33,361 bases of DNA from Spirulina sp. GTDB lineage: Bacteria; Cyanobacteriota; Cyanobacteriia; Cyanobacteriales; Spirulinaceae. The notes below the pieces were generated by a model. The model was not told where the DNA came from. It did not search any database and worked only from the letters and a program-made list of their open reading frames with translations. Position 1 is the stretch's first letter. Each line of letters opens with the position of its first letter. The stretch is taken from positions 1 to 33,361 of the forward strand of contig JAABSU010000008.1 in NCBI GenBank assembly GCA_011390265.1, in the 5' to 3' direction. A program made the translations under genes and the position numbers. Shown in pieces: positions 5,358-25,698 of the stretch.

Positions 5358-7424
5358 ATGCTGCCTGAATCAAACCTTGGCTTGACGCTCCAACGGGGCG
5401 GGGAAGAATTATTGCTGTTGAAGGCGGGCGATCGCTTCACGCTACGCCCGACCCAACCGGACGCGCCCCTGCCCCCAGAACTCGATCGCCTTAACCGTCA
5501 CCCCATTCCCCAAACGCCGCTGCTGGAATTTATCGTCGCGCCGGCCAATTTGGAGGCGGCGATGGCGGCGGCCCGGGGGGCGGAGGGGGTGAGCTTCGCT
5601 AGCCATGTCTATCAACTGCAAAATAGCCCGGAAACGCGGCTCTATCTCACCGATGAAATGACGGTGCAGTTTGGGGCTGAGGTTGATCCAGAGGAGCAGT
5701 TGGCGTTAACGGCTCCCTTGGGGCTGGTGGGCGATCGCCCCCTCGAAGGTGTCCCCAATACGACGATTTACCGCGTCACGCTCCAAGCCACGGCCAACCC
5801 GATTAAGCTGGCCAATCACCTCATGGCTAGCCCGCAGGTGCTCACGGCTGAAGCCAATATTATTTTTCTCCAAGAATCCTTCTATCGCCCCCGCGACTCC
5901 CATTACCGCGAACAGTGGTATCTCCACCACCAGGGGGGAACCCAGTTAGCCCCCAACTCCCATATTGACTGTGAGCGGGCTTGGGATATCACCCGGGGGA
6001 GTCGGTCGGTGGTGGTGGCGATCGCCGATGATGCCATTGATCTCAACCATCCGGATCTTCAAGGCCCGGGGAAAATTATCGCCCCCTACGATTTTCGCGA
6101 TCGCGACTTTTCCCCCCTCCCCACTGAGCCGCAGGAAAGCCACGGCACCGCCTGCGCTGGGGTAGCCGTAGCGGAAGAAAACGGCAATGGCATTGTGGGC
6201 GTGGCTCCCGGTTGCGCCCTGATGCCCCTGCGTACCACGGGTTATCTGGATGATAATGCGATCGAAAACCTGTTTAACTGGGCAATGGAAAAAGGAGCCA
6301 GCGTCATCTCCTGTAGTTGGGGAGCCGCCGCCGTCCATTTCCCCCTTTCCCTCCGCCAAAGGGCCGCCCTCCATAAAGCCGCCACCCAAGGCCGCCAAGG
6401 CAAAGGCTGCGTCATCGTCTTCGCCGCTGGCAATGCCAACCGTCCCGTCCAGGGAACCCTTTATGAACAGGGCTGGCCCAACGACCTCCTCAAAGGCCCC
6501 ACAGATTGGCTCAGTGGCTTTTGTACCCATCCCGATGTGATCACCGTTTCCGCCTGTACGAGTTTGGGGAAAAAATCCAGCTATAGCAATTGGGGTACGC
6601 ATATTGCCGTCACTGCCCCCAGCAATAATGCGCCGCCAGGGATGTGGTTTGCCAAAAGCGGGTTTATGTCCACTGCTCCGGCGGTAAAAACCCATCTGCC
6701 GGGATTGGGCATCTTTACCACGGATCAAATGGGGGATTGGGGCTATGATCGCGGCAACTTTACCCGCAATTTTGGTGGTACTTCCAGCGCCTGCCCAGTG
6801 GTGGCGGGGGTGGCGGCGTTGGTGCTGTCGGTGAATCCCAATTTAACCGCTGTGGAGGTTAAAAAATTGCTGGAGCAGACGGCGGATAAAATTGTCGATC
6901 GCGACCCCGATCCCCAATTGGCCTTAACCCTCGGAACCTATGACAGCAAGGGCCACAGCCAGTGGTTTGGCTATGGCAAGGTGAATGCCTATCAAGCGGT
7001 GTTGGAGGCCCAGCGGCGACAGCGGGCCAATGTCCCCGTGGCAGTGAAGCGGAGTTTGAGCCGCCACAGTAGCCTCGCGGTGGCGATTCCCGACCATAAT
7101 CCCCAAGGGTTACTGAGTAGCTTGGAAATTACCCAAGGCGGCAAGATTACGGCCTTGGCGGTGACGGTGGAAATTGTCCATGGATTTTTGGGAGATTTAG
7201 AAATTCATCTCCGCAGTCCCCACGGCATCATGGTGCTCCTACAAAGCCGCAACCTCGGACGGTTAACCCGCCTCAAACGCACCTACCGCTCCCTCGTCAC
7301 CTCTCCCTTGGCTCAGTTCCACGATCGCCCCGCCTTGGGAACTTGGCAGTTATGGGTGATTGACCGCGTACCGGGGGATACGGGAACGCTTCAGGGTTGG
7401 GGGTTGGATTTGGAGGTGGTTTGA
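5358..7424 (+). CDS. Subtilisin-like (S8) serine protease with C-terminal P-domain
   Basis: 689 aa from the ATG; the ORF track uses a TTG 12 bases earlier (692 aa) and no ribosome binding site decides between them. Residues 1-180 form a pro-region-like segment. The peptidase domain shows the catalytic triad: Asp in VVVAIADDAIDLNHPDLQG, His in ESHGTACAGVA and Ser in GGTSSACPVVAGVAALV, with the oxyanion Asn in VIVFAAGNAN. The last 120 residues (from about SSLEITQGGKI to GWGLDLEVV) are a proprotein-convertase P/Homo-B domain, with the typical V.V.I.H...GDLEI.L.SP.G and GTWQLWVID motifs. This is the kexin-like architecture found in cyanobacteria. No signal peptide is obvious, so the location is uncertain. 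It is the last core gene before the accessory island. Confidence 0.92.
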   Translation: MLPESNLGLTLQRGGEELLLLKAGDRFTLRPTQPDAPLPPELDRLNRHPIPQTPLLEFIVAPANLEAAMAAARGAEGVSFASHVYQLQNSPETRLYLTDEMTVQFGAEVDPEEQLALTAPLGLVGDRPLEGVPNTTIYRVTLQATANPIKLANHLMASPQVLTAEANIIFLQESFYRPRDSHYREQWYLHHQGGTQLAPNSHIDCERAWDITRGSRSVVVAIADDAIDLNHPDLQGPGKIIAPYDFRDRDFSPLPTEPQESHGTACAGVAVAEENGNGIVGVAPGCALMPLRTTGYLDDNAIENLFNWAMEKGASVISCSWGAAAVHFPLSLRQRAALHKAATQGRQGKGCVIVFAAGNANRPVQGTLYEQGWPNDLLKGPTDWLSGFCTHPDVITVSACTSLGKKSSYSNWGTHIAVTAPSNNAPPGMWFAKSGFMSTAPAVKTHLPGLGIFTTDQMGDWGYDRGNFTRNFGGTSSACPVVAGVAALVLSVNPNLTAVEVKKLLEQTADKIVDRDPDPQLALTLGTYDSKGHSQWFGYGKVNAYQAVLEAQRRQRANVPVAVKRSLSRHSSLAVAIPDHNPQGLLSSLEITQGGKITALAVTVEIVHGFLGDLEIHLRSPHGIMVLLQSRNLGRLTRLKRTYRSLVTSPLAQFHDRPALGTWQLWVIDRVPGDTGTLQGWGLDLEVV

Positions 7425-7449
7425 GGGGGAACAGGGAACGGGCAACGCA

Positions 7450-7466
7450 GGGGCGAAAAACGCCCC
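7450..7466. terminator. Short GC hairpin after the protease gene
   Basis: GGGGCG-aaaaa-CGCCCC forms a six-pair hairpin 26 bp after the protease stop. No T-run follows, so it is at best a weak terminator. It marks the left edge of the accessory region. Confidence 0.3.
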
Positions 7467-7585
7467 CCAGACCTAGGTTTTGCGACTGAGATGCTGAAAG
7501 TTGATGACTTGGTGGAGGCGATCGAGAAGTTTGGGCCGTTGAGGCACTTCCATAACAGGACTTGCGCTAAAAGACGACCAAAACG

Positions 7586-7615
7586 GGTGTTATCCCGCCT
7601 GTGCGGAATAACGCC
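7586..7615. repeat. Hairpin of 13 positions with one mismatch
   Basis: ggtgttatcccgc and gcggaataacgcc pair over 12 of 13 positions (one of them a G-T pair) around a CTGT loop. It lies just before the first attC-like structure. It could be a transcription terminator for read-through from the protease gene, or part of a decayed attC; there is no T-run. The preceding aacaggacttgcgct also resembles a short sequence dispersed in cyanobacterial genomes. Confidence 0.4.
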
Positions 7616-7702
7616 TATAATATCGGAGTTAGACCGCCAGTGCTTGGCAACACCCTCCAGGGGTGAGTTATCTTGCAGTTGCGGTCTAATAAATAGTTAT
7701 GT
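7615..7702 (+). other. Candidate attC-like site 1 with R' core GTTATGT
   Basis: An inverted repeat TTAGACCGC / GCGGTCTAA (7629-7637 and 7681-7689) with an inner CACCC/GGGTG pairing is followed, after a six-base spacer, by GTTATGT. This is close to the GTTRRRY recombination core. On the left a seven-base spacer is preceded by CTATAAT, a poor match to the RYYYAAC R'' box. The near-symmetrical spacers and total length of 88 bp suit an attC, but R'' is degenerate. The first ATG of the RM pair begins four bases after the core, as is usual for cassettes. Confidence 0.4.
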
Positions 7703-7705
7703 GTC

Positions 7706-8557
7706 ATGAAAATGAGATTTGCAATGAATAAACAGCAAAGAATTTCAAAAGCCATAAAAGATGTCGTATCTGAAATGATGGATCGGGTAATGGATCGCGT
7801 TCTAATTACTGACCCTTTTATTGAGGAAAGTCACCATTCAAGCAAACCTCTCTACGCAGCATTAGTGCCTGACGAGATTTTTAAAGGTTCACATTTTGAG
7901 AGAAGATTTGTAACTCCATTTGGTGGTGTATGGGAAAAACTTGCTCAAGTTGTTGCTTTAGAAGCTCATGGTAATTGTCAAATGGGACATACGATAAACG
8001 GAACAATTGGAAAAGAAAGCTTAAGAAGAATTCAAGAGATTCTAAATAAATTAGAACATAGTAAAGGCAAAGAAAAAATTAAACCAGATTGGGATAAAGA
8101 ATTGAAATATATTAAGGCGGGAAGTGGGCAACTTATGCCTGCGACTGTTGTGTGTGATATTTTTATACAAAACGAAGAAGATGGAACACGGTATTCGTTT
8201 GAACTAAAAGCTCCATTACCAAATAGCGATCAAACAAAAGTAAGCAAAGAAAAATTATTTAAGCTTTTGGCAATGGAGCCAAAAGCTGTTGATTATGCCT
8301 ACTACGCTTTGCCATATAATCCTTATGGGAGGAAAGAAGATTATAAATGGACTTTCCCTATGCGATGGTTCAATATGCATGAAGATGAATCAGTACTGAT
8401 AGGCAATGAATTTTGGGAACTTATTGGAGGGGAAGGAACTTATAGTAACTTCATTAAAGAAATTAATGCATTGGGTAAGGATTACAAAGAAAGGATCTAT
8501 CGAGAGTTTTTGGGAATTGAACCTCCTAAAAATTTTGAAGAAGAAGTTTTAAAATAA
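7706..8557 (+). CDS. Type II restriction endonuclease, probably TdeIII-like
   Basis: 283 aa from the first ATG; ATGs at 7712 and 7724 are alternatives, the last giving the N-terminus MNKQQRISKAIKDVV. The protein is lysine-rich and soluble. The segment CDIFIQNEEDG followed by YSFELKAPLPNSDQTKVSKEKL has the D-x(n)-E-x-K pattern of PD-(D/E)XK nucleases. The overall pattern (LVPDEIFKGSHFERRFVT, FELKAPLPNSDQTK) resembles the TdeIII family, said to cut GGNCC; I am moderately sure of the family and cannot confirm the site. A C5 methylase gene follows 25 bp later. Coding sequence is markedly AT-rich compared with the flanking core genes. It starts right at the candidate cassette boundary. Confidence 0.72.
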   Translation: MKMRFAMNKQQRISKAIKDVVSEMMDRVMDRVLITDPFIEESHHSSKPLYAALVPDEIFKGSHFERRFVTPFGGVWEKLAQVVALEAHGNCQMGHTINGTIGKESLRRIQEILNKLEHSKGKEKIKPDWDKELKYIKAGSGQLMPATVVCDIFIQNEEDGTRYSFELKAPLPNSDQTKVSKEKLFKLLAMEPKAVDYAYYALPYNPYGRKEDYKWTFPMRWFNMHEDESVLIGNEFWELIGGEGTYSNFIKEINALGKDYKERIYREFLGIEPPKNFEEEVLK

Positions 8558-8582
8558 TTGACTTGAATAAGAGACATAAAAA

Positions 8583-10076
8583 ATGCAGAACATACGATTT
8601 ACTTTTATTGATCTTTTTGCTGGAATTGGTGGGTTTAAAATGGCATTAAGCAATAATGGCGGTCATTGCATAGGTTTTAGTGAAATAAATAAAGACGCAA
8701 TAAATATATATTGCGAGAACTTTAAAATTGAACCTAGTTGTAACTTAGGAGATATCACCAAAATCAGAGAATTACCACCTCACGACTTGTTAACCGCTGG
8801 AGTTCCTTGTCAAAGCTGGTCAATTGCAGGTAAAAATCTAGGTTTTGACGATGATAGAGGGCAGTTGTGGAACGATACAATTTATTTGCTTCAACAATCT
8901 AAACCAAAGGCATTTATTTTTGAAAATGTAAAAGGATTGGTTGACCCTCGGAACAAAAAAGCTTTGTCATATATCCTAGAAAGAATTGAAAAAGCAGGCT
9001 ATCACGCTAACTATTTTTTAATTAACTCATTTGATTATGGTGTACCACAAAATAGGGTTCGCGTATACATAATTGGGTTTAAGAAAAAGAATTACTTCCA
9101 AAATTTCGCGTTACCAAAATTTAGTGAAAACAAACTAAAACTTAGTGATATATTAGGTATTGAAATACAGCAAAAAATAGATAAAAAGATTGTTCAGAGA
9201 GACTTATTTGGCAATATTGTTGAACCTAAAAGCATGAGCCTTTCAAGTACAAATGGATTCAACGATTATTTTTTGTTTAACGACCTTAGAAATGGTCATA
9301 CAACAATACACTCGTGGGACATTATTGACACTACTAAACGGCAAAAAGATATTTGCTTATTATTACTTAGAAACAGACGAAAAAATTACTATGGTAAATT
9401 AGACGGAAATCCATTGTCATTAGAACATTTTCAATGCCTAGACTCGTCGATTAAACAAGAAGAAATTGATAAACTGGTTCAATTAGAAATCTTAAAATCT
9501 GAAGAGTATCGTTTTGCGATCAAACAGTATAATAGTAACGACTTGACAAAGGATGAAGAACTCTTACTTTCATTCGCAAACAATGTAGAAATTCTTATTG
9601 ATAGTTTAAATATTCAAAGAGCTTTTAAGTTAAAAAGGATGTCAATTGGAAAGGCAATTAAGTCTCTGAAACAGAAAGATATTATTGAGTGTGTCGAAAT
9701 TCGATATGATTTTAAAAACACTAAAATTAGTACGGGACTATTTGGTGTAAATCGTATCTTCTTGCCAAGTTCTGATATTTTCCCAACCCTAGTTGCAAGC
9801 GACACAAATGACTTCATAACTTTAAAGACAATCGAAGCATTAAATCATAATGATTTTAAAAACAAATTCATAAAGGAAGTTTATGAATTAAGAGAATTTA
9901 GAAAAATTACTAAACGTGAGGCTTGTTTAATACAGGGATTTCCTGAAGATTTTAAACTACCAAAGTCAAGATCGAGATGGATGAAACTCATTGGAAATAG
10001 TGTTTCAGTTCCCGTAATTGATAAACTGTGCAAAGCGATTATTGATACTGGTGTCTTTGAAAATGAAGAGGAATAG
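8583..10076 (+). CDS. DNA (cytosine-5-)-methyltransferase
   Basis: 497 aa. C5-methylase motifs occur in order: motif I FIDLFAGIGGFKMAL near residue 8, motif IV with the catalytic Cys in AGVPCQSWSIAGK near 78, motif VI FENVKGLVDPRN near 116, motif VIII QNRVRVYIIGF near 157, and motifs IX-X ending in KLIGNSVSVPVIDKL near the C-terminus. Between VIII and IX lies a long variable region of about 230 residues, which would hold the target-recognition domain. It modifies cytosine and protects host DNA from the endonuclease encoded 25 bp upstream. Codon use is AT-rich like its partner. The gene ends 39 bp before the attC-like site. Confidence 0.93.
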   Translation: MQNIRFTFIDLFAGIGGFKMALSNNGGHCIGFSEINKDAINIYCENFKIEPSCNLGDITKIRELPPHDLLTAGVPCQSWSIAGKNLGFDDDRGQLWNDTIYLLQQSKPKAFIFENVKGLVDPRNKKALSYILERIEKAGYHANYFLINSFDYGVPQNRVRVYIIGFKKKNYFQNFALPKFSENKLKLSDILGIEIQQKIDKKIVQRDLFGNIVEPKSMSLSSTNGFNDYFLFNDLRNGHTTIHSWDIIDTTKRQKDICLLLLRNRRKNYYGKLDGNPLSLEHFQCLDSSIKQEEIDKLVQLEILKSEEYRFAIKQYNSNDLTKDEELLLSFANNVEILIDSLNIQRAFKLKRMSIGKAIKSLKQKDIIECVEIRYDFKNTKISTGLFGVNRIFLPSSDIFPTLVASDTNDFITLKTIEALNHNDFKNKFIKEVYELREFRKITKREACLIQGFPEDFKLPKSRSRWMKLIGNSVSVPVIDKLCKAIIDTGVFENEEE

Positions 10077-10115
10077 GAAGATCAAATTGAATTAGAAATT
10101 ATTAATAAAGACAAC

Positions 10116-10185
10116 ACATAACAAATCGCTGCACCTGACATTTCTCCGCTGTGCTACAAAATGTAGGTGAACTCATCCGTTAGAC
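10116..10185 (+). other. attC-like recombination site 2 (end of the RM cassette)
   Basis: The 70 bp reads R'' ACATAAC, spacer AAATCGCTG, arm CACCTGACATTT, loop, arm AAATGTAGGTG, spacer AACTCATCC, R' GTTAGAC. The two arms pair perfectly except for one unpaired G in the left arm, the position where attC sites carry extrahelical bases. R' matches GTTRRRY exactly. R'' is the exact reverse complement of GTTATGT at 7696; extended by two bases, ACACATAAC mirrors GTTATGTGT. In a linear cassette, R'' is expected to be complementary to the cassette's own first bases, so the predicted cassette is 7697-10179 (2483 bp) and contains only the RM pair. Confidence 0.65.
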
Positions 10186-10220
10186 CAACACCTCAATTTT
10201 TCAATACATTTAACCTCACT

Positions 10221-10500
10221 TTCCGCAGGTTGATATTTTATTTTTACTATGCATTGCTAAATACAATCGCTGTAAGCCTTGTGGGAAGAGACTTCTAGGA
10301 TTTGCCAATTTTGAGAACTCAACGAGTAGCTTAATGTTCCGTAATAATTTGATCGGCAACATCCAAAGTCCAAACCTGCCATTTTTCAAGGCTTTCGGGA
10401 AACAAAAAATAAATGCACACTTTAATTTGTTTGTCAACCTGCGGAATGTCGGTAAACCACTACACCTTTTTTATTTTTTGTCAACCTGCGGAATGTCGGT
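10221..10500. repeat. TTCCGCAGGTTGA repeats, one inverted and two direct; possible IS/MITE relic
   Basis: TTCCGCAGGTTGA occurs at 10221-10233 and its reverse complement at 10434-10446 and 10481-10493. The last two lie in a 23-bp perfect direct repeat ttgtcaacctgcggaatgtc plus ggt (10431-10453 and 10478-10500). Opposite copies with AT-rich inner flanks look like the ends of a small insertion element; the second right-hand copy abuts the truncated antitoxin gene. No transposase is recognisable between them. The 73-aa ORF at 10216-10437 (minus) and a fragment reading FPESLEKWQVWTLDVADQII in another minus frame were not identified. Confidence 0.45.
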
Positions 10501-10633
10501 TTAACCAGATCGACTGGCTCCGGGAGATTGCCATTGTCCTATTTCAGCAAGAGCGGATTTCCCTGAGCCGTGCCAGTAAGATTGCCGCAATGGAAGTCAT
10601 GAATTTTCAAAAACTACTGGCAGATTGTGGCAT
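10500..10633 (+). pseudogene. Truncated duplicate of the UPF0175 antitoxin gene
   Basis: This 134-bp segment is identical to 11634-11767 except for three substitutions. It covers codons 17-60 of the intact UPF0175 gene, from FNQIDWLREIA to the LLAD-x-G segment, and then diverges. The first codons are replaced by the TCAACCTGCGGAA repeat and the 3' part by unrelated sequence. The 87-aa ORF in the track (10413-10676) is a chance fusion across this fragment. No toxin gene follows it in the same orientation. The duplicate implies a recent segmental duplication within the island. Confidence 0.8.
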
Positions 10634-10672
10634 GCTTAAACAGCATAGGACTAAGAAATCAGCCGAGATCGC

Positions 10673-11005
10673 TTAGTGAAGCTCCAAGCAGTGAAAAGCA
10701 GTATTCCCTAAAAGTTCTTCAATTACTTCTTGAGCAGAGCGAATCAGAATTTCAATCTGTTTAGTTGGTGCATTTCCACATCTTAACCATATCACTTTCG
10801 GTGGAGAACCGTATAGTCGGCTTCTTTCCGCAAAATCTGCATCTTGAGTGACAATGCAGAAATCGTTTAACTGAGCGAACTCCCAAATCTCTGTATCTGT
10901 CTTCTCCGTCAACCCGTGAAATTGTACATGACTAGCATTCGGGAAGATATCAGCCAATCGAGTAACAAGTTTTCGACTCAGGTTTTGATCAAAAAGTAGT
11001 TTCAA
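10673..11005 (-). CDS. DUF5615 PIN-like toxin of a type II TA pair
   Basis: 110 aa. The protein begins MKLLFDQNLSRKLVTRL, with the PIN-type first Asp, followed by VTQDADFAERSRLYGSPPKVIWLRCGN, typical of DUF5615 (Mut7-C-like PIN fold). These are putative ribonuclease toxins. The start overlaps the stop of the upstream DUF433 gene by four bases (ATGA), indicating translational coupling. The DUF433/DUF5615 pairing is a common cyanobacterial toxin-antitoxin arrangement. The length is normal for the family, so it is probably intact. It is oriented against the flanking TA genes of the island. Confidence 0.85.
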   Translation of the reverse strand: MKLLFDQNLSRKLVTRLADIFPNASHVQFHGLTEKTDTEIWEFAQLNDFCIVTQDADFAERSRLYGSPPKVIWLRCGNAPTKQIEILIRSAQEVIEELLGNTAFHCLELH

Positions 11006-11232
11006 GCAGCACTCACCGATGCAACTAAACGATGTTCACGATCCGCCGCAAACTCTAAGCAGGCTCTAATATCGGTTTCCGTCAGTTCTGGAAAATCGTC
11101 GATGATCTCAGCAGTAGACATACCAGCCGCTAACCAGCCAAAGATATCGTAAACCGTAATTCGCATCCGGCGGATACAGGGCTTGCCGCCACGCTTATCA
11201 GGCTCAATCGTAATGATGTCGCGATAGCTCAT
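11002..11232 (-). CDS. DUF433 antitoxin
   Basis: 76 aa. The sequence has the DUF433 pattern: an N-terminal ITIEPDKRGGKPCIRRMRITVYDIFGWLAAG, then a second helical part MSTAEIIDDFPELTETDIRACLEFAADRE. The family is a small helix-turn-helix-like antitoxin and likely autorepressor usually encoded just upstream of a DUF5615 PIN toxin, as here with a four-base overlap. The full usual length of about 75 residues is present. The promoter should lie between 11233 and 11280, which also contains a candidate attC R'' box. Confidence 0.85.
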   Translation of the reverse strand: MSYRDIITIEPDKRGGKPCIRRMRITVYDIFGWLAAGMSTAEIIDDFPELTETDIRACLEFAADREHRLVASVSAA

Positions 11233-11272
11233 AATACAGACAGATGGGTTATGTACACCTAAGTTTAGAGCA

Positions 11273-11359
11273 GGCTAACACTGCACTGCAATGGGCAGGC
11301 GTTAAATGATCGGGTGAGAGCCATAGGTTGCTTGCCGCCGCTCAACTTCATCGTTAGAT
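11273..11359 (+). other. Weak candidate attC-like site 3
   Basis: GGCTAAC (one mismatch to RYYYAAC) at 11273 is followed by ACTGCACTG, similar to the left arm of site 2, and 87 bp later by GTTAGAT, a perfect GTTRRRY core. Internal pairing is poor (only GGCAGGC against GCTTGCC), so the site may be decayed or a coincidence. Its right core coincides exactly with the start of the duplicated murJ 3' segment. Confidence 0.25.
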
Positions 11360-11526
11360 CGCCCCAAGGGTTTAGCCCCGGCGGAGGAATTTGGCTTGAA
11401 GGCGGGTTTGCAGCATCGTTAATTCTGGGAGTTTGAATTGCAGGGCTAACCCGGTGAAGATGCCCAAGGCGACGATGGAGCCGAGGGTGAGTTGTAGGAA
11501 TACGACCCATAATTGAGCGGGATCAA
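11353..11526 (-). pseudogene. Duplicated 3' end of murJ (174-bp direct repeat)
   Basis: 174 bp aligned without gaps to 13285-13458, which is the 3' end of murJ plus 19 bp of its downstream sequence. Several substitutions separate the copies, for example near the stop codon and at gttgtaggaata versus gttgcaccagta. The fragment holds the last 50 or so codons of murJ and has no start, so it is not functional. Both copies begin at the identical octamer GTTAGATC. The 81-aa ORF track entry at 11265-11510 is a frame shadow of this copy. Confidence 0.85.
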
Positions 11527-11585
11527 GCGTGCAACCCCAGCCGCCCAAGCCTTAAAATTACCAATAAGCACTTGAGGGCAACTCG

Positions 11586-11837
11586 ATGCAAATTATGCTG
11601 AACCTACCTGATAGCCTCAGCCAAGTAGAAACCTTTAACCAGATCGACTGGCTCCGGGAGATTGCCATTGCCCTATTTCAGCAAGAGCGGATTTCCCTGA
11701 GCCGTGCCAGTAAGATTGCCGCAATGGAAGTCATGAGTTTTCAAAAACTACTGGCAGATCGTGGCATTTGTGTTCACTACGATGTGGAAGACTTTGAGCA
11801 GGATGTTCAGCATCTACGAGATCGAGGTTGGCTGTGA
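11586..11837 (+). CDS. UPF0175 family antitoxin
   Basis: 83 aa, the usual size for UPF0175. The N-terminus MQIMLNLPDSL is a beta strand typical of the family; the middle QERISLSRASKIAAMEVMSFQKLLADRGI is the predicted helix-turn-helix, and the C-terminus YDVEDFEQDVQHLRDRGWL completes it. Members are antitoxins paired with DUF3368 PIN proteins. The stop overlaps the GTG start of the downstream toxin by four bases (GTGA). A truncated copy of this gene lies 1.1 kb upstream at 10500. Confidence 0.88.
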   Translation: MQIMLNLPDSLSQVETFNQIDWLREIAIALFQQERISLSRASKIAAMEVMSFQKLLADRGICVHYDVEDFEQDVQHLRDRGWL

Positions 11838-12364
11838 TCGTTGTCAGCGATACATCTGCCCTCTCCAATCTTGCAATCATCGATCATCTCTGGTTGCTAA
11901 AGTCAATTGACCGAACCGTTATTGTTCCGGACGTTGTTGCCAGGGAATTAGCAGCCGTAAGCAATCCCATCATTCCAGTCATTCTCCAAGCAGGCTGGAT
12001 TCAAACTCAATCCCTCAGCAACTTTGAACTTGCCCACCAACTTCAGCAAGAACGGGGATTAGATGCTGGAGAAGCGAATGCAATAGCCTTGGCATTTGAG
12101 CTACAAGCTGATGATCTCCTCATTGATGAACGCTTGGGGCGGCAAGAAGCCCTTCGGCTTGGACTGTCTATCATTGGTATTTTGGGCATTCTGCTCGTTG
12201 CCAAACAAAGGAGTCTCATCCCTCAAGTTCGATCTGTTATGGATACCTTGATCAAGCAAGCTGGTTTTCGTGTCACCCCTGAGCTATATCAGCATATCTT
12301 AAGATTTGGCTCAAGAATCTTAGGAGATGATAAACTGAGACAGTCTGAGGATGTCAAGGATTAG
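11834..12364 (+). CDS. DUF3368 PIN-domain toxin
   Basis: 176 aa from a GTG that overlaps the antitoxin stop (GTGA); the ORF track's TTG six bases earlier is the alternative. PIN acidic residues are visible: Asp in VVSDTSALSNLA, Glu in GLDAGEANAIALA and Asp in DDLLIDERLGRQEA. DUF3368 proteins are putative ribonuclease toxins paired with UPF0175 antitoxins, as here. The C-terminus runs directly into the antisense integrase-like fragment, whose 3' end it truncates. Length and motifs suggest it is intact. Confidence 0.87.
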   Translation: MIVVSDTSALSNLAIIDHLWLLKSIDRTVIVPDVVARELAAVSNPIIPVILQAGWIQTQSLSNFELAHQLQQERGLDAGEANAIALAFELQADDLLIDERLGRQEALRLGLSIIGILGILLVAKQRSLIPQVRSVMDTLIKQAGFRVTPELYQHILRFGSRILGDDKLRQSEDVKD

Positions 12365-12490
12365 GATTTGGCCATAGTCAACGTCCACATCCCTAACTCG
12401 CAGTCGTAGGCATTCAGTCAACCGCATCCCAGTCCCGTAGAGTAGGTGGATGACTAAGGCCTCCGGGTCATAGAAGACTCCGAAAAGCTT
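12365..12490 (-). pseudogene. intI: Integron-integrase-like tyrosine recombinase fragment
   Basis: The minus strand is open for 42 codons and reads KLFGVFYDPEALVIH followed by LLYGTGMRLTECLRLRVRDV and DVDYGQI. The block LLYGTGMRL-x-ECLRLRV-x-DVD is the strongly conserved region around the first catalytic Arg of integron integrases and their closest XerC-like relatives. There is a stop just upstream in frame (12491-12496 region) and the fragment ends at the DUF3368 stop, so the N-terminal part and the HxxR and Tyr motifs are gone. It is too short for the ORF track. The IntI-specific insert lies in a missing part, so IntI versus another tyrosine recombinase cannot be settled from this piece. 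Confidence 0.7.
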
Positions 12491-12531
12491 TTATAAAGAT
12501 TTAGTACTTTAGTTCAGAAGATTTGCCCATT

Positions 12532-12795
12532 ATGACGCAAGCAACTCTTGTTAAACTCATTACTCAGCTTGAAACACTGGAATTGGATGAGCTTCAAAAG
12601 CTAAGTCAGGCAATACAAGTTCGTCTTAACTCATTAGATGAACCCACTAGACTAGCCCAGCTTTACAGTTCTTTACTTCACTCAGGTCTAGTTTGCTATG
12701 TAAGGCAAGGCTCTCTGAAGCAACAACCTAGGTTATCTTTAGTTTCGGTACAAGGTAGTTCTATATCTGAAACAATTATTGAGGAGCGCGGCTAA
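12532..12795 (+). CDS. Putative VapB-like antitoxin
   Basis: 87 aa from the ATG; the ORF track's TTG start adds three residues. The N-terminus TLVKLITQLETLELDELQKLSQAIQVRL is a predicted amphipathic helical pair, like many cyanobacterial small antitoxins. The remainder is low in recognisable motifs. The stop TAA is immediately followed by the ATG of a VapC-type PIN toxin, so it occupies the antitoxin position. The assignment rests mainly on this context. Confidence 0.6.
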   Translation: MTQATLVKLITQLETLELDELQKLSQAIQVRLNSLDEPTRLAQLYSSLLHSGLVCYVRQGSLKQQPRLSLVSVQGSSISETIIEERG

Positions 12796-13260
12796 ATGGC
12801 TATCTATTATCTGGATAGCAGTGCGTTAGTAAAACGCTATGTGAGCGAAACTGGTTCTACTTGGGTTTGCAGTCTTTTTGATCCCAGCCTAGGTCATCAG
12901 TTTTTTATAGCTGCTATTGCAGGTGTAGAAATTATTTCTGCAATTACCCGTAGAGCAAAAGGCGGAAGTATTAGCATATCTGATTCTATAGCGATTTGTA
13001 ATCAGTTTAAACAAGATTTTCAGACCGAATATCAGGTTATTGAAATCTCAGAGAAAATCATTAAAACAGCAATAAGCATGGCTGAGTTATATGCTTTGCG
13101 AGGCTATGATGCCGTTCAACTTGCTTCAGGGCGTGAATTGAACATTCTATGCTTAACAAATAGTCTGCCTGTGGTCAATTTCGTTTCAGCCGATAACGAT
13201 CTAAACAAATGTGCATTGAGCGAAGGATTAGCGATCGAGAATCCCAATAATTACCCCTAA
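12796..13260 (+). CDS. VapC-type PIN-domain ribonuclease toxin
   Basis: 154 aa. The acidic residues of the PIN active site are visible: Asp in IYYLDSSALVKRYVSE, Glu in IAGVEIISAITRR, Asp in RGYDAVQLASGREL and the last acidic cluster in VSADNDLNKCA. The family cleaves tRNA or other RNA when released from its antitoxin. It starts directly after the antitoxin stop, without a spacer. The gene ends 24 bp before the GTTAGATC boundary downstream of murJ. Normal length suggests it is intact. Confidence 0.88.
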   Translation: MAIYYLDSSALVKRYVSETGSTWVCSLFDPSLGHQFFIAAIAGVEIISAITRRAKGGSISISDSIAICNQFKQDFQTEYQVIEISEKIIKTAISMAELYALRGYDAVQLASGRELNILCLTNSLPVVNFVSADNDLNKCALSEGLAIENPNNYP

Positions 13261-13303
13261 GCTCTACATCAGCATAACTTGACTGTTAGATCGCCCCAAG
13301 GGT

Positions 13304-14896
13304 TTAGCCGCGCCGGAGGAATTTAGCTTGGAGGCGGGTTTGCAGCATCGTTAATTCTGGGAGTTTGAATTGCAGGGCTAACCCGGTGAAGATGCCCAAG
13401 GCGACGAGGGAGCCGAGGGTGAGTTGCACCAGTACGACCCATAATTGATCGGGATCAAACCAGCGATCGCACAGCCAATTGACCCCCCAACTCCCCGCAG
13501 TAGCCGCCACTGTACAACCGATCAAGCCCAACAAAATCAGCCCCCATTCCCCCAAAGGCAAACCCCGCAGGCGGCGATGGAGAATGAAGAGAAAAATCAC
13601 CATCGAGGTGATATTCACCCCCACTGTGGCCATCACTAGGCCCGGGGTCTGAAAGGCATTGACGAGGAAATAATCTAAAACAACGTTCAGGAGAATATTA
13701 AAGACGCTGATCCGAAAGGGTGTTTCCCCATCCCCTAGAGCATAGAACACTCGCACCAATACATCCCGCCCTAAATAGAAAAACATCCCAAACCCGTAGG
13801 CCATTAACACCGGCACGACTAACCGGGAAGCCTCCGCATCAAAGGCAAACCGCTCATAGATAATCCGCACAATCGGCCCCCCTTGGGCGATGAAGATGGC
13901 CGTTAGGGGCAACATGGTGAGGGCGGTGAGGAGTAGACCCTGGCGGATGCGGACTTTGAGATCATCCCACTGCTCCGGAGCCGTCAAACGGGAAAACACC
14001 GGCAACATCGGCACGAGGATCATATTGGAAAGGATGCCCACGGGGGTGAGGACGATGAAATTGGCGTAACGCATCGCCGCCGCTGCCCCGGCAATGGTGG
14101 AGGCGAAATAGAGGTCGGTGTAGACGTTAATGTGGAGCATCCCCGATGAGAGGGTGGCGGGGGCCATCACCTTGAGGACATCGGCTACACCGGGAATCCG
14201 CCAATCAAACCGGAGGCGCAGGGTTCCGAGTTGCGATCGCCACTGGGCCACCAACTGCGCCAACCATTGCAACACCCCCCCCGCTAAAGTTCCCCCCGCC
14301 AACACCAAACCCCCCAACCGCGCATATTCCGGCGCATTCACCGCATCCCCCAACCACCACAGCAAAAACCCTACCCCCCCGATCAGCGTCACGCTGGAAA
14401 AGAGGGGGCTAACGCTGGGCAACCAATATTGATCGGCGGCGTTGAGTGTGCCAAAGCCAATGCCGATCAGACCCGCAAGGATCGCCAGGGGAGCCATGAT
14501 CCGCAGTTGTAGCACCGCCATGGCGCGGGTGGTGTCATCCAAGCCGGGGGCGAGGAGGTCGATGCAGGGGCCGGCAGCGAGGATCAATGCCACCGTAACC
14601 AGCAAGAGAATTCCCGTTACGAAGGTGGTCACCGTTTCGACAATGGGGGCCGCTTCCGATTTGTCCCGTTTTGCCAAGGCACTGACTAAAGCACTGTGGA
14701 AGGGGCCGTTAATCCCCCCCAAGAGAATGAGCAAAAAGCCGGGAATCACATAGGCGTAGGCGTAGGCATTGACCACCGGCCCCACCCCAAAGGCGGCGGC
14801 GATCGCCTGCTCCCGCACCAAACCAAACACTTTACTAATCAATGTGGCCATGGCCACAATACCGGCAATGCCCGCGAGGGAACGTTTAGGAGCCAT
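13304..14896 (-). CDS. murJ: Lipid II flippase MurJ
   Basis: 530 aa polytopic membrane protein, normal length for MurJ/MviN. The N-terminus SLAGIAGIVAMATLISKVFGLVREQAIAAAFG is the family signature (helix 1 with the conserved Arg), followed by PVVNAYAYAYVIPGFLLILLGGINGPFHSALV. About fourteen hydrophobic segments follow. MurJ flips lipid II across the cytoplasmic membrane for peptidoglycan synthesis. The neighbouring holB and peptidoglycan hydrolase lie on the same strand upstream. The 3' end borders the accessory island and has been copied there at 11353-11526. Confidence 0.95.
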   Translation of the reverse strand: MAPKRSLAGIAGIVAMATLISKVFGLVREQAIAAAFGVGPVVNAYAYAYVIPGFLLILLGGINGPFHSALVSALAKRDKSEAAPIVETVTTFVTGILLLVTVALILAAGPCIDLLAPGLDDTTRAMAVLQLRIMAPLAILAGLIGIGFGTLNAADQYWLPSVSPLFSSVTLIGGVGFLLWWLGDAVNAPEYARLGGLVLAGGTLAGGVLQWLAQLVAQWRSQLGTLRLRFDWRIPGVADVLKVMAPATLSSGMLHINVYTDLYFASTIAGAAAAMRYANFIVLTPVGILSNMILVPMLPVFSRLTAPEQWDDLKVRIRQGLLLTALTMLPLTAIFIAQGGPIVRIIYERFAFDAEASRLVVPVLMAYGFGMFFYLGRDVLVRVFYALGDGETPFRISVFNILLNVVLDYFLVNAFQTPGLVMATVGVNITSMVIFLFILHRRLRGLPLGEWGLILLGLIGCTVAATAGSWGVNWLCDRWFDPDQLWVVLVQLTLGSLVALGIFTGLALQFKLPELTMLQTRLQAKFLRRG

Positions 14897-23334: not shown

Positions 23335-23340
23335 GTTACT

Positions 23341-23415
23341 TGAGTGTGAGGAGTAAAGTTGAATAAGCACTTGGGGTCGAAACAAGGCAAGACTCCCAAG
23401 TGCTTTATCTTTTCT
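23341..23415 (+). ncRNA. Candidate small RNA or leader with terminator hairpin
   Basis: Downstream of the candidate promoter, AAGCACTTGGG and CCCAAGTGCTT (23365-23375 and 23395-23405) form an 11-bp stem with a 19-nt loop, followed by TATCTTTTCT. The stretch before it contains GTGTGAGGAGT, exactly the reverse complement of the ACUCCUCACAC motif of the cyanobacterial sRNA Yfr1. A TTG-initiated 44-codon ORF (MNKHLGSKQGK...) with a GAGGAG in front could also be read through it, ending in the CBS-CP12 3' end, so a leader peptide is an alternative. Confidence 0.3.
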
Positions 23416-24321: not shown

Positions 24322-24497
24322 ACCCCCACCTGGCATCCGCCGAGGTGGGGGAGTGACTGGAGATAACCCGGTCGTAGCTGCGAATAGGCCACCAAGGTTA
24401 GTACGGCAACACTTCCGGTTGCTTCTCTAAATCGGATTATTTGTAAGGCCCTGGAATCTCAGGGAGTGGGTTCAGCCCAGAAACACCGTACTAACTG
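24322..24497 (+). ncRNA. Omega RNA / HEARO RNA of the IsrB element
   Basis: The region directly upstream of the IsrB-like ORF contains nested hairpins. An outer stem GTTAGTACGG / CCGTACTAAC encloses the segment holding the CCGGTTGC..., CCCTGGAATCTCAGGG and GGGTTCAGCCC hairpins, a pattern I recognise as the HEARO noncoding RNA. Its 5' part holds the CCCCCACCT/AGGTGGGGG hairpin. In IscB-family systems the guide lies at the 5' end of this RNA, next to the element boundary. The GTG start used by the ORF track lies inside this RNA. Confidence 0.75.
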
Positions 24498-24531
24498 GCT
24501 TAAGAGACCTGTAGTTTTGGAATTATCTTCC

Positions 24532-25698
24532 ATGCAACGCATCCCCGTTCAAAACCCTGATGGTACTCCTGCCATGCCCACCAAGCGCAATCGCGCTCAA
24601 AAGTGGGTAACGCAGGGCAAGGCCCAATGGGTGAAGACCGATCTACGGATCAAGGCAGTGCGCCTGAAAGAGGAGCCATCGGGTCGTAATACCCAGCCCG
24701 TCGTGGTTGGTGTCGATCCCGGCAAACTCTATTCAGGGATTGCCGTTCAATCGGCTCAAGCGACATTATTCCAGTCTCACCTAGAACTCCCCTACCCCAA
24801 AGTGCGGGAGCGGATGGATAATCGCAGAATGCTACGGCGTTCTCGCCGCAGTCGCCGGATTAATCGAGAGTTACCCTTCCCACTACGAAATCATCGCCAA
24901 CAGCGATTTAACAACCGTAAACAGCAGAAAGTGCCCCCCAGTATCCGAGCCAACCGAGACCTGGAGTTTCGAGTTGTTCAGGAGTTGTCCCAACTGTTTC
25001 CCATTGCCAACCTTGGCTATGAGAAAGTTCGCGCCGACGTGGACTTAACCTCAGGTCGAAAGGGGGCAAGATCTGGGAAAGGTTTCTCCCCTGTGATGGT
25101 AGGGCAAGCCTACGCCATTGAGAAAATGGAGCAAATTGCCCCTGTTTACACCCGTTACGGGTGGCAGCAGGATGGCAATGGCACCGCTCAACTTCGCTCT
25201 GCCTTGGGATTGAAGAAGTCTCAGGACAAAGCGGCACAAATCCCCCAAACCCATGCGGTAGATGGTGTCGCCTTAGCCTGTGGATACTTCATCGAGTATC
25301 GTCCCTTCCAACGGAAACGGAGTCACGGTTATCTTTGGTTTGGACAGGTTAAGCTCACATCTGCCCCATTTGTGGTGATTAAACGGCCACCCATCAGCCG
25401 CAGGCAACTGCACCTCATGGTTCCCCGTAAGCAGGGTCTACGCCGCAAATATGGGGGCACAGTGACCCGCCATGGATTCCGGAAAGGGGATTTAGTGCGG
25501 GCTGAGATGGCGGGTCGCGTCTCAGTGGGCTATGTGAGTGGGGATACGGCTCGGCAAGTTTCTGTTTCTGGGTTCACTTGGAAGCGTATTGGCCAGTTCA
25601 GTGCTGCTAAGGTTGAGCTACTCTATCGTGCCACGGGTATTTTAGTCAGTTGCCCGCAGAGATTGTCAGTCAGTGGGGCATTTAACCCCACTGACTGA
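24532..25698 (+). CDS. isrB: IsrB-like RNA-guided nuclease (IscB family without HNH)
   Basis: 388 aa from the ATG; the track's earlier GTG lies in the omega RNA. Residues 1-45 are the PLMP-like N-terminal domain (RIPVQNPDGTPAMPTKRNRA). RuvC-I is VVVGVDPGKLYSGIAV with Asp near 62, followed by an Arg-rich bridge helix (RRMLRRSRRSRRINRE). RuvC-II is ANLGYEKVRADV with its Glu, and RuvC-III is THAVDGVALACGYF with its Asp. Between RuvC-II and III only about 75 residues occur and no HNH motif is visible, as in IsrB rather than IscB. The C-terminal part (RRKYGGTVTRHGFRKGD) would be the target-adjacent interaction domain. IsrB proteins are single-strand nickases guided by the upstream RNA. Confidence 0.82.
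   Translation: MQRIPVQNPDGTPAMPTKRNRAQKWVTQGKAQWVKTDLRIKAVRLKEEPSGRNTQPVVVGVDPGKLYSGIAVQSAQATLFQSHLELPYPKVRERMDNRRMLRRSRRSRRINRELPFPLRNHRQQRFNNRKQQKVPPSIRANRDLEFRVVQELSQLFPIANLGYEKVRADVDLTSGRKGARSGKGFSPVMVGQAYAIEKMEQIAPVYTRYGWQQDGNGTAQLRSALGLKKSQDKAAQIPQTHAVDGVALACGYFIEYRPFQRKRSHGYLWFGQVKLTSAPFVVIKRPPISRRQLHLMVPRKQGLRRKYGGTVTRHGFRKGDLVRAEMAGRVSVGYVSGDTARQVSVSGFTWKRIGQFSAAKVELLYRATGILVSCPQRLSVSGAFNPTD

Follow-up and report, generated by a model that had tools for sequence, protein, structure and literature searches.

How a complete restriction-modification (RM) pair came to lie between two short complementary boxes in a cyanobacterial genome is the question raised by the DNA analysed here, a stretch of 33,361 nucleotides from Spirulina sp. 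that is referred to as the window. The contig is cyanobacterial by content, with NDH-1-like genes recognised by eye and a Cyano-1 RNA at 23340-23411; beside the ndh genes lies an ORF (24466-25698) which has, again by eye, an RRXRR/HNH-type (IscB-like) look. The initial annotation, made from the sequence alone, read the pair as an integron-type gene cassette that starts at GTTATGT and ends in an attC site whose R'' box pairs with that start. The sequence elements it named all lie where it placed them, and the region is almost certainly a cassette inserted in first position in a cyanobacterial chromosomal integron of the sedentary type. The case for an integron cassette is made stronger by an attI site, remnants of integrase genes (intI) and a second attC, all of which the initial annotation had missed. 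The features of the locus are the following:

7473-7553, minus strand: 5' remnant of intI, 26 codons (MEVPQRPKLLDRLHQVINFQHLSRKT) followed by a stop
about 7575-7702, plus strand: attI site, the insertion platform, with the crossover falling between G7696 and T7697
7697-10179, plus strand: gene cassette 1 (RM pair and attC), 2483 bp
7706-8557, plus strand: type II restriction endonuclease of the TdeIII family, 283 aa (RE_TdeIII, PF09520, E 1.6e-72)
8583-10076, plus strand: C5-cytosine DNA methyltransferase, 497 aa (C5 methylase, PF00145, E 9.5e-82)
10116-10185, plus strand: attC of cassette 1, R'' ACATAAC, R' G/TTAGAC (covariance models)
10180-11353, plus strand: gene cassette 2, DUF5615/DUF433-type toxin-antitoxin genes, MITE-invaded
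11273-11359, plus strand: attC of cassette 2 (cyanobacterial covariance model, 37.6 bits, E 4.2e-9)
12356-12496, minus strand: internal piece of another decayed intI, covering model positions 107-153 with one stop (E 1.5e-11)

The segment 7697-10179 is an integron gene cassette, in first position at the attI site and closed by a genuine attC. Its start box GTTATGT (7696-7702) is exactly complementary to the R'' box ACATAAC (10116-10122) of its own attC, and GTTAGAC at 10179-10185 forms the right edge. The pairing, written GTTATGT(GT)/(AC)ACATAAC, extends over the nine bases that had been claimed for it, GTTATGTGT (7696-7704) being the reverse complement of ACACATAAC (10114-10122). As also predicted, nothing but the two RM genes is encoded between the boundaries, and the cassette is much more AT-rich than its surroundings, with a GC content of about 33% (30-36%) against 53-61% in the flanks. 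Both genes of this type II RM system are intact: PF09520 and PF00145 are matched over their full length, PADLOC assigns REase_II and MTase_II, and the methyltransferase retains the motifs GVPCQS, ENVKG, QNRVRVYIIG and GNSV. The first ATG of the endonuclease ORF lies three bases past the start box, and comparison with relatives suggests 7724 as the probable true start. The predicted pair, an endonuclease with a protective C5 methylase, would cleave incoming DNA that is not methylated, phage DNA for example.

The attC at 10116-10185 has the R''-L''-loop-L'-R' organisation of an imperfect palindrome with the conserved AAC...G/TT and extrahelical bases, its L''/L' stem being formed by CACCT(G)ACATTT and AAATGTAGGTG with an extrahelical base. 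Two covariance models were applied to it. The first was built from nine attC sites taken from chromosomal integrons outside the cyanobacteria and selected by chain consistency, the R'' of every site having to match the R' box before it; in an unfiltered search of both strands of the whole window it ranked the site first, with 25.8 bits (E 1.1e-4), the runner-up reaching 12.0 bits (E 0.43). The second, built from nine cyanobacterial attCs with the window's own left out, matched the site at 17.8 bits (E 0.0065); all these E-values are rough because the calibration was short. The initial annotation had let its reading stand or fall with a covariance-model hit at this place, and the match covers exactly 10116-10185. 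As resident sites typically score 40-90 bits with the cyanobacterial model, the 17.8 bits imply that this attC is not of the commonest local type. In the alignment of cyanobacterial attCs, compensatory changes occur in 10 of the 13 L-stem pairs; length-matched sets were used for such alignments, since MAFFT misaligned the loops when loop lengths were mixed. Rfam gave no relevant match on the site, and its folding energy did not differ significantly from that of shuffled sequences (DNA z = -0.5, bottom strand). The support for the attC is therefore covariance-model based, positional and comparative, and folding energy alone adds none.

On the left, the 230 bp upstream of cassette 1 belong to a repeat family that is present in the same genome and in relatives, and nearly all matches to it end within a few bases of 7700. 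Besides the window's own copy there are 13 or more others, all of which end at or near ..ATAG/TTRRRY; in an alignment of 13 copies, conservation extends up to the ..ATAG/TT(R)RRY crossover and the sequences diverge beyond it. In the congener G001 a copy lies directly 5' of an intact integrase gene, 22 bp away (contig C467), and another copy adjoins an intact IntI gene on contig C1 of genome G520. Because copies adjoin intact integrases in these two genomes, the upstream element is identified as attI; both the position next to intI and the crossover at G/TT that mark such a site are found. Seven of the 13 copies, that of the window included, are followed by a first cassette with a real attC whose R'' exactly matches the box, an eighth shows one mismatch, and a further attI in the same genome (contig C91) again has an exact match (GTTATCT/AGATAAC). 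This conserved attI family occurs in 16 of 293 genomes and 8 of 122 genera sampled in the order. An imperfect hairpin at 7629-7689 was at first taken for a possible attC or small RNA, a reading that was then rejected: the hairpin is part of attI, since the copies beside intact intI align with it and its sequence is invariant, independent of the cassette start box. No sigma-70 consensus promoter pair was found in 7420-7760, the attI region in which a Pc promoter was sought; expression of the cassette from the attI side is nevertheless plausible.

The integrase itself survives at this locus only in pieces. The remnant at 7473-7553 resembles the N-terminus of the intact IntI of G001 (MEVPQSPKLLERVRQAIRFRHLSRKT...), a protein of 326 aa that scores 461 bits with TIGR02249 against a cut-off of 265. 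The best PDB match of this congener protein is 2a3v (7e-94), the integron integrase of V. cholerae, whose entry is named site-specific recombinase IntI4. It aligns over its full length with IntI1 and with 2a3v, including the integron-specific insert (..ALARKYPNAQREWGWQYVFPA..RSRDPRSG..RRHHL), and is about 52% identical to class 1 IntI1. Searches of the genome contigs, on which all genome-wide statements rest, revealed fragments but no intact intI in the window's own assembly (83% complete), while intact genes are present in two species of the genus (G001 and G002). The genomes nearest by related intI include named Leptolyngbyaceae-type cyanobacteria. In G520, three integron integrase genes lie within about 12 kb (C1:4486109-4498212), of which one contains stops and the other two do not.

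The most direct comparison is provided by contig C24 of G001, on which the same serine protease and attI lie at the left and murJ at the right. Up to and including G7696 the left flanks share about 91% identity; on the right, the match resumes at G10179/TTAGACC for about 38 nt, with TTAGACCAACACCTCAATTTTTCAA... in the window corresponding to TTAGACCGACACTCCAATTTTTCAA... after the attC of the sister locus. Between these points the congener carries a different cassette of 1,786 bp which encodes a 482-aa protein, and its similarity to cassette 1 is no greater than that of shuffled sequence. The clean junctions that the initial annotation expected in relatives are thus seen, with breaks exactly at G/TTAT and G/TTAGAC; judged by the aligned sequences, one cassette has replaced another, and the junction on either side is at G/TT. 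Together with the attC-model match, these sister-locus junctions support the integron-type reading of the RM pair. That a sister species carries another cassette at the identical position shows that these bacteria, too, exchange defence-type genes by means of integrons. On the congener contig, intI is also truncated and a murJ tail piece is fused to it.

According to established integron biology, IntI acts on a folded attC bottom strand, which it recombines with a double-stranded attI. By this route, the integrase would have joined the bottom strand of the folded attC of a circular RM cassette to the double-stranded attI, an insertion that would have connected G7696 to TTATGT at the left and left G10179/TTAGAC at the right. 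The adjacent intI has since been cut down to 26 codons, and with this truncation cassette 1 should now be mobile only when IntI is supplied in trans.

Downstream, the left edge of cassette 2, TTAGACC[AG]ACAC..., is common to the sister species. A MITE-like repeat of about 240 bp (10213-10453) with terminal inverted repeats around TTCCGCAGGTTGA lies inside this cassette, and copies 92% identical to it are found on contigs C308 and C332. The 3' end of murJ is duplicated together with the array-end box GTTAGATCGCC (11354-11535 and 13286-13465), and the two duplicates enclose toxin-antitoxin genes and the intI fragment. The run of toxin-antitoxin-type genes between the murJ pieces (11586-13260; UPF0175, DUF3368 and PIN-like by eye) has no recognised attC as a boundary.

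One alternative to insertion by an integrase is that the RM pair arrived by homologous recombination or on a transposon, with GTTATGT/ACATAAC and the hairpin forming an inverted repeat by chance. In its favour, the folding energy of the attC is unremarkable, and other cyanobacteria harbour RM pairs from this family (G319, with 87% and 81% aa identity, G008 and G042), where neither covariance model detected an attC nearby; in G008 the pair is followed by a stretch resembling half an attC, which scored in neither model and was dropped. The search around these relatives shows that the pair is not intrinsically cassette-borne, and it therefore became so in this lineage or its donor. A chance repeat, however, is contradicted by the independent attC-model match at 10116-10185, by the location of attI beside IntI in relatives and by the precise exchange of one cassette for another in the sister species, and the ORFs listed at the boundaries include no transposase, nor is there a target-site duplication. 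This explanation is accordingly very improbable.

The other alternative concerns present activity only and is compatible with the integron cassette reading: IntI inserted the cassette in the past, the platform is now dead, and the RM pair has become fixed as an ordinary chromosomal RM operon. The chances of this being so are about even. The truncation of intI next to attI, the finding of fragments only in the genome and the invasion of the array by the MITE and rearranged murJ pieces speak for a dead platform, but the assembly is only 83% complete, and both G001 and G002, of the same genus, possess an intact intI. Furthermore, in genome G011 a distance of about 290 kb separates attI copies from the intact IntI, which is compatible with action in trans, and the first cassette of G001 differs although intI is truncated there too, which suggests that exchange went on after or around the loss of intI.

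The integron cassette reading also bears on other loci. The window's own genome has at least four attI loci (contigs C76, C109, C91 and C321) and attC sites on C81, C227, C91, C109 and C321, with no intact integrase detected. On contig C2 of G011, three attI copies (at about 9311, 11715 and 14353, minus strand) lie within about 5 kb among attCs, and attI seems to have multiplied inside the arrays of this genome. First or early cassettes at related loci encode a GmrSD-type nuclease with HipA, a PLD/NgoFVII-like nuclease, a DUF488 protein matching a PADLOC candidate and DUF433/DUF5615 toxin-antitoxin pairs; the RM cassette fits this defence-type pattern, which comes from a small, unselected sample with no enrichment test. 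A broader model, of a distributed integron in this cyanobacterial lineage, can tentatively be proposed in which many attI sites, dispersed or interleaved with arrays and devoid of their own integrase, are served in trans by a single integrase and preferentially loaded with defence and toxin-antitoxin cassettes, attI having multiplied for example via attI x attI recombination; at present we consider this rather unlikely. The less familiar aspects of these integrons are the conserved attI family, the attI copies with no intact integrase nearby and the interleaved attI sites of G011.

What is new here is less than the initial annotation had hinted. It was aware of no well-described example in cyanobacteria, and this holds in part only: integrons in Cyanobacteria (Nemergut 2008, PMC2426708) and a cyanobacterial attC model (Ghaly 2021, PMC8352920) have already been reported, restriction and methylation are among the known cassette functions (PMC8618304), and RM cassettes have been described in Xanthomonas (PMC12444791). 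The locus adds a cyanobacterial case, cleanly bounded and comparatively proven, in which an entire type II RM system travels in a single cassette. The idea that chromosomal integrons serve as repositories of anti-phage systems, which is established for Vibrio (PMC12409362), is thereby extended beyond the proteobacteria. The literature describes attI sites outside class 1 as poorly characterised (PMC9024848); a conserved attI for cyanobacterial integrons is now defined, which makes a trans-acting integrase and the multiplication of attI testable in this group.

With sedentary chromosomal integrons of the Vibrio cholerae type (reviewed in PMC12409362), the locus shares attI, attC, promoter-poor cassettes, insertion in first position and a cargo of defence and toxin-antitoxin genes; unlike them, it has a tiny array (two attCs in the window), a truncated integrase at the locus and several attI sites per genome. 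The published cyanobacterial integrons come from the same phylum, with intI and attC reported; the sections of PMC2426708 and PMC8352920 considered list intI or attC and contained no description of an RM cassette or of a conserved attI family. As in the known RM cassettes (PMC8618304, PMC12444791), RM genes are cassette-borne, here with R and M together in one 2.5-kb cassette; by contrast, the pair belongs to the TdeIII family and the host is a cyanobacterium.
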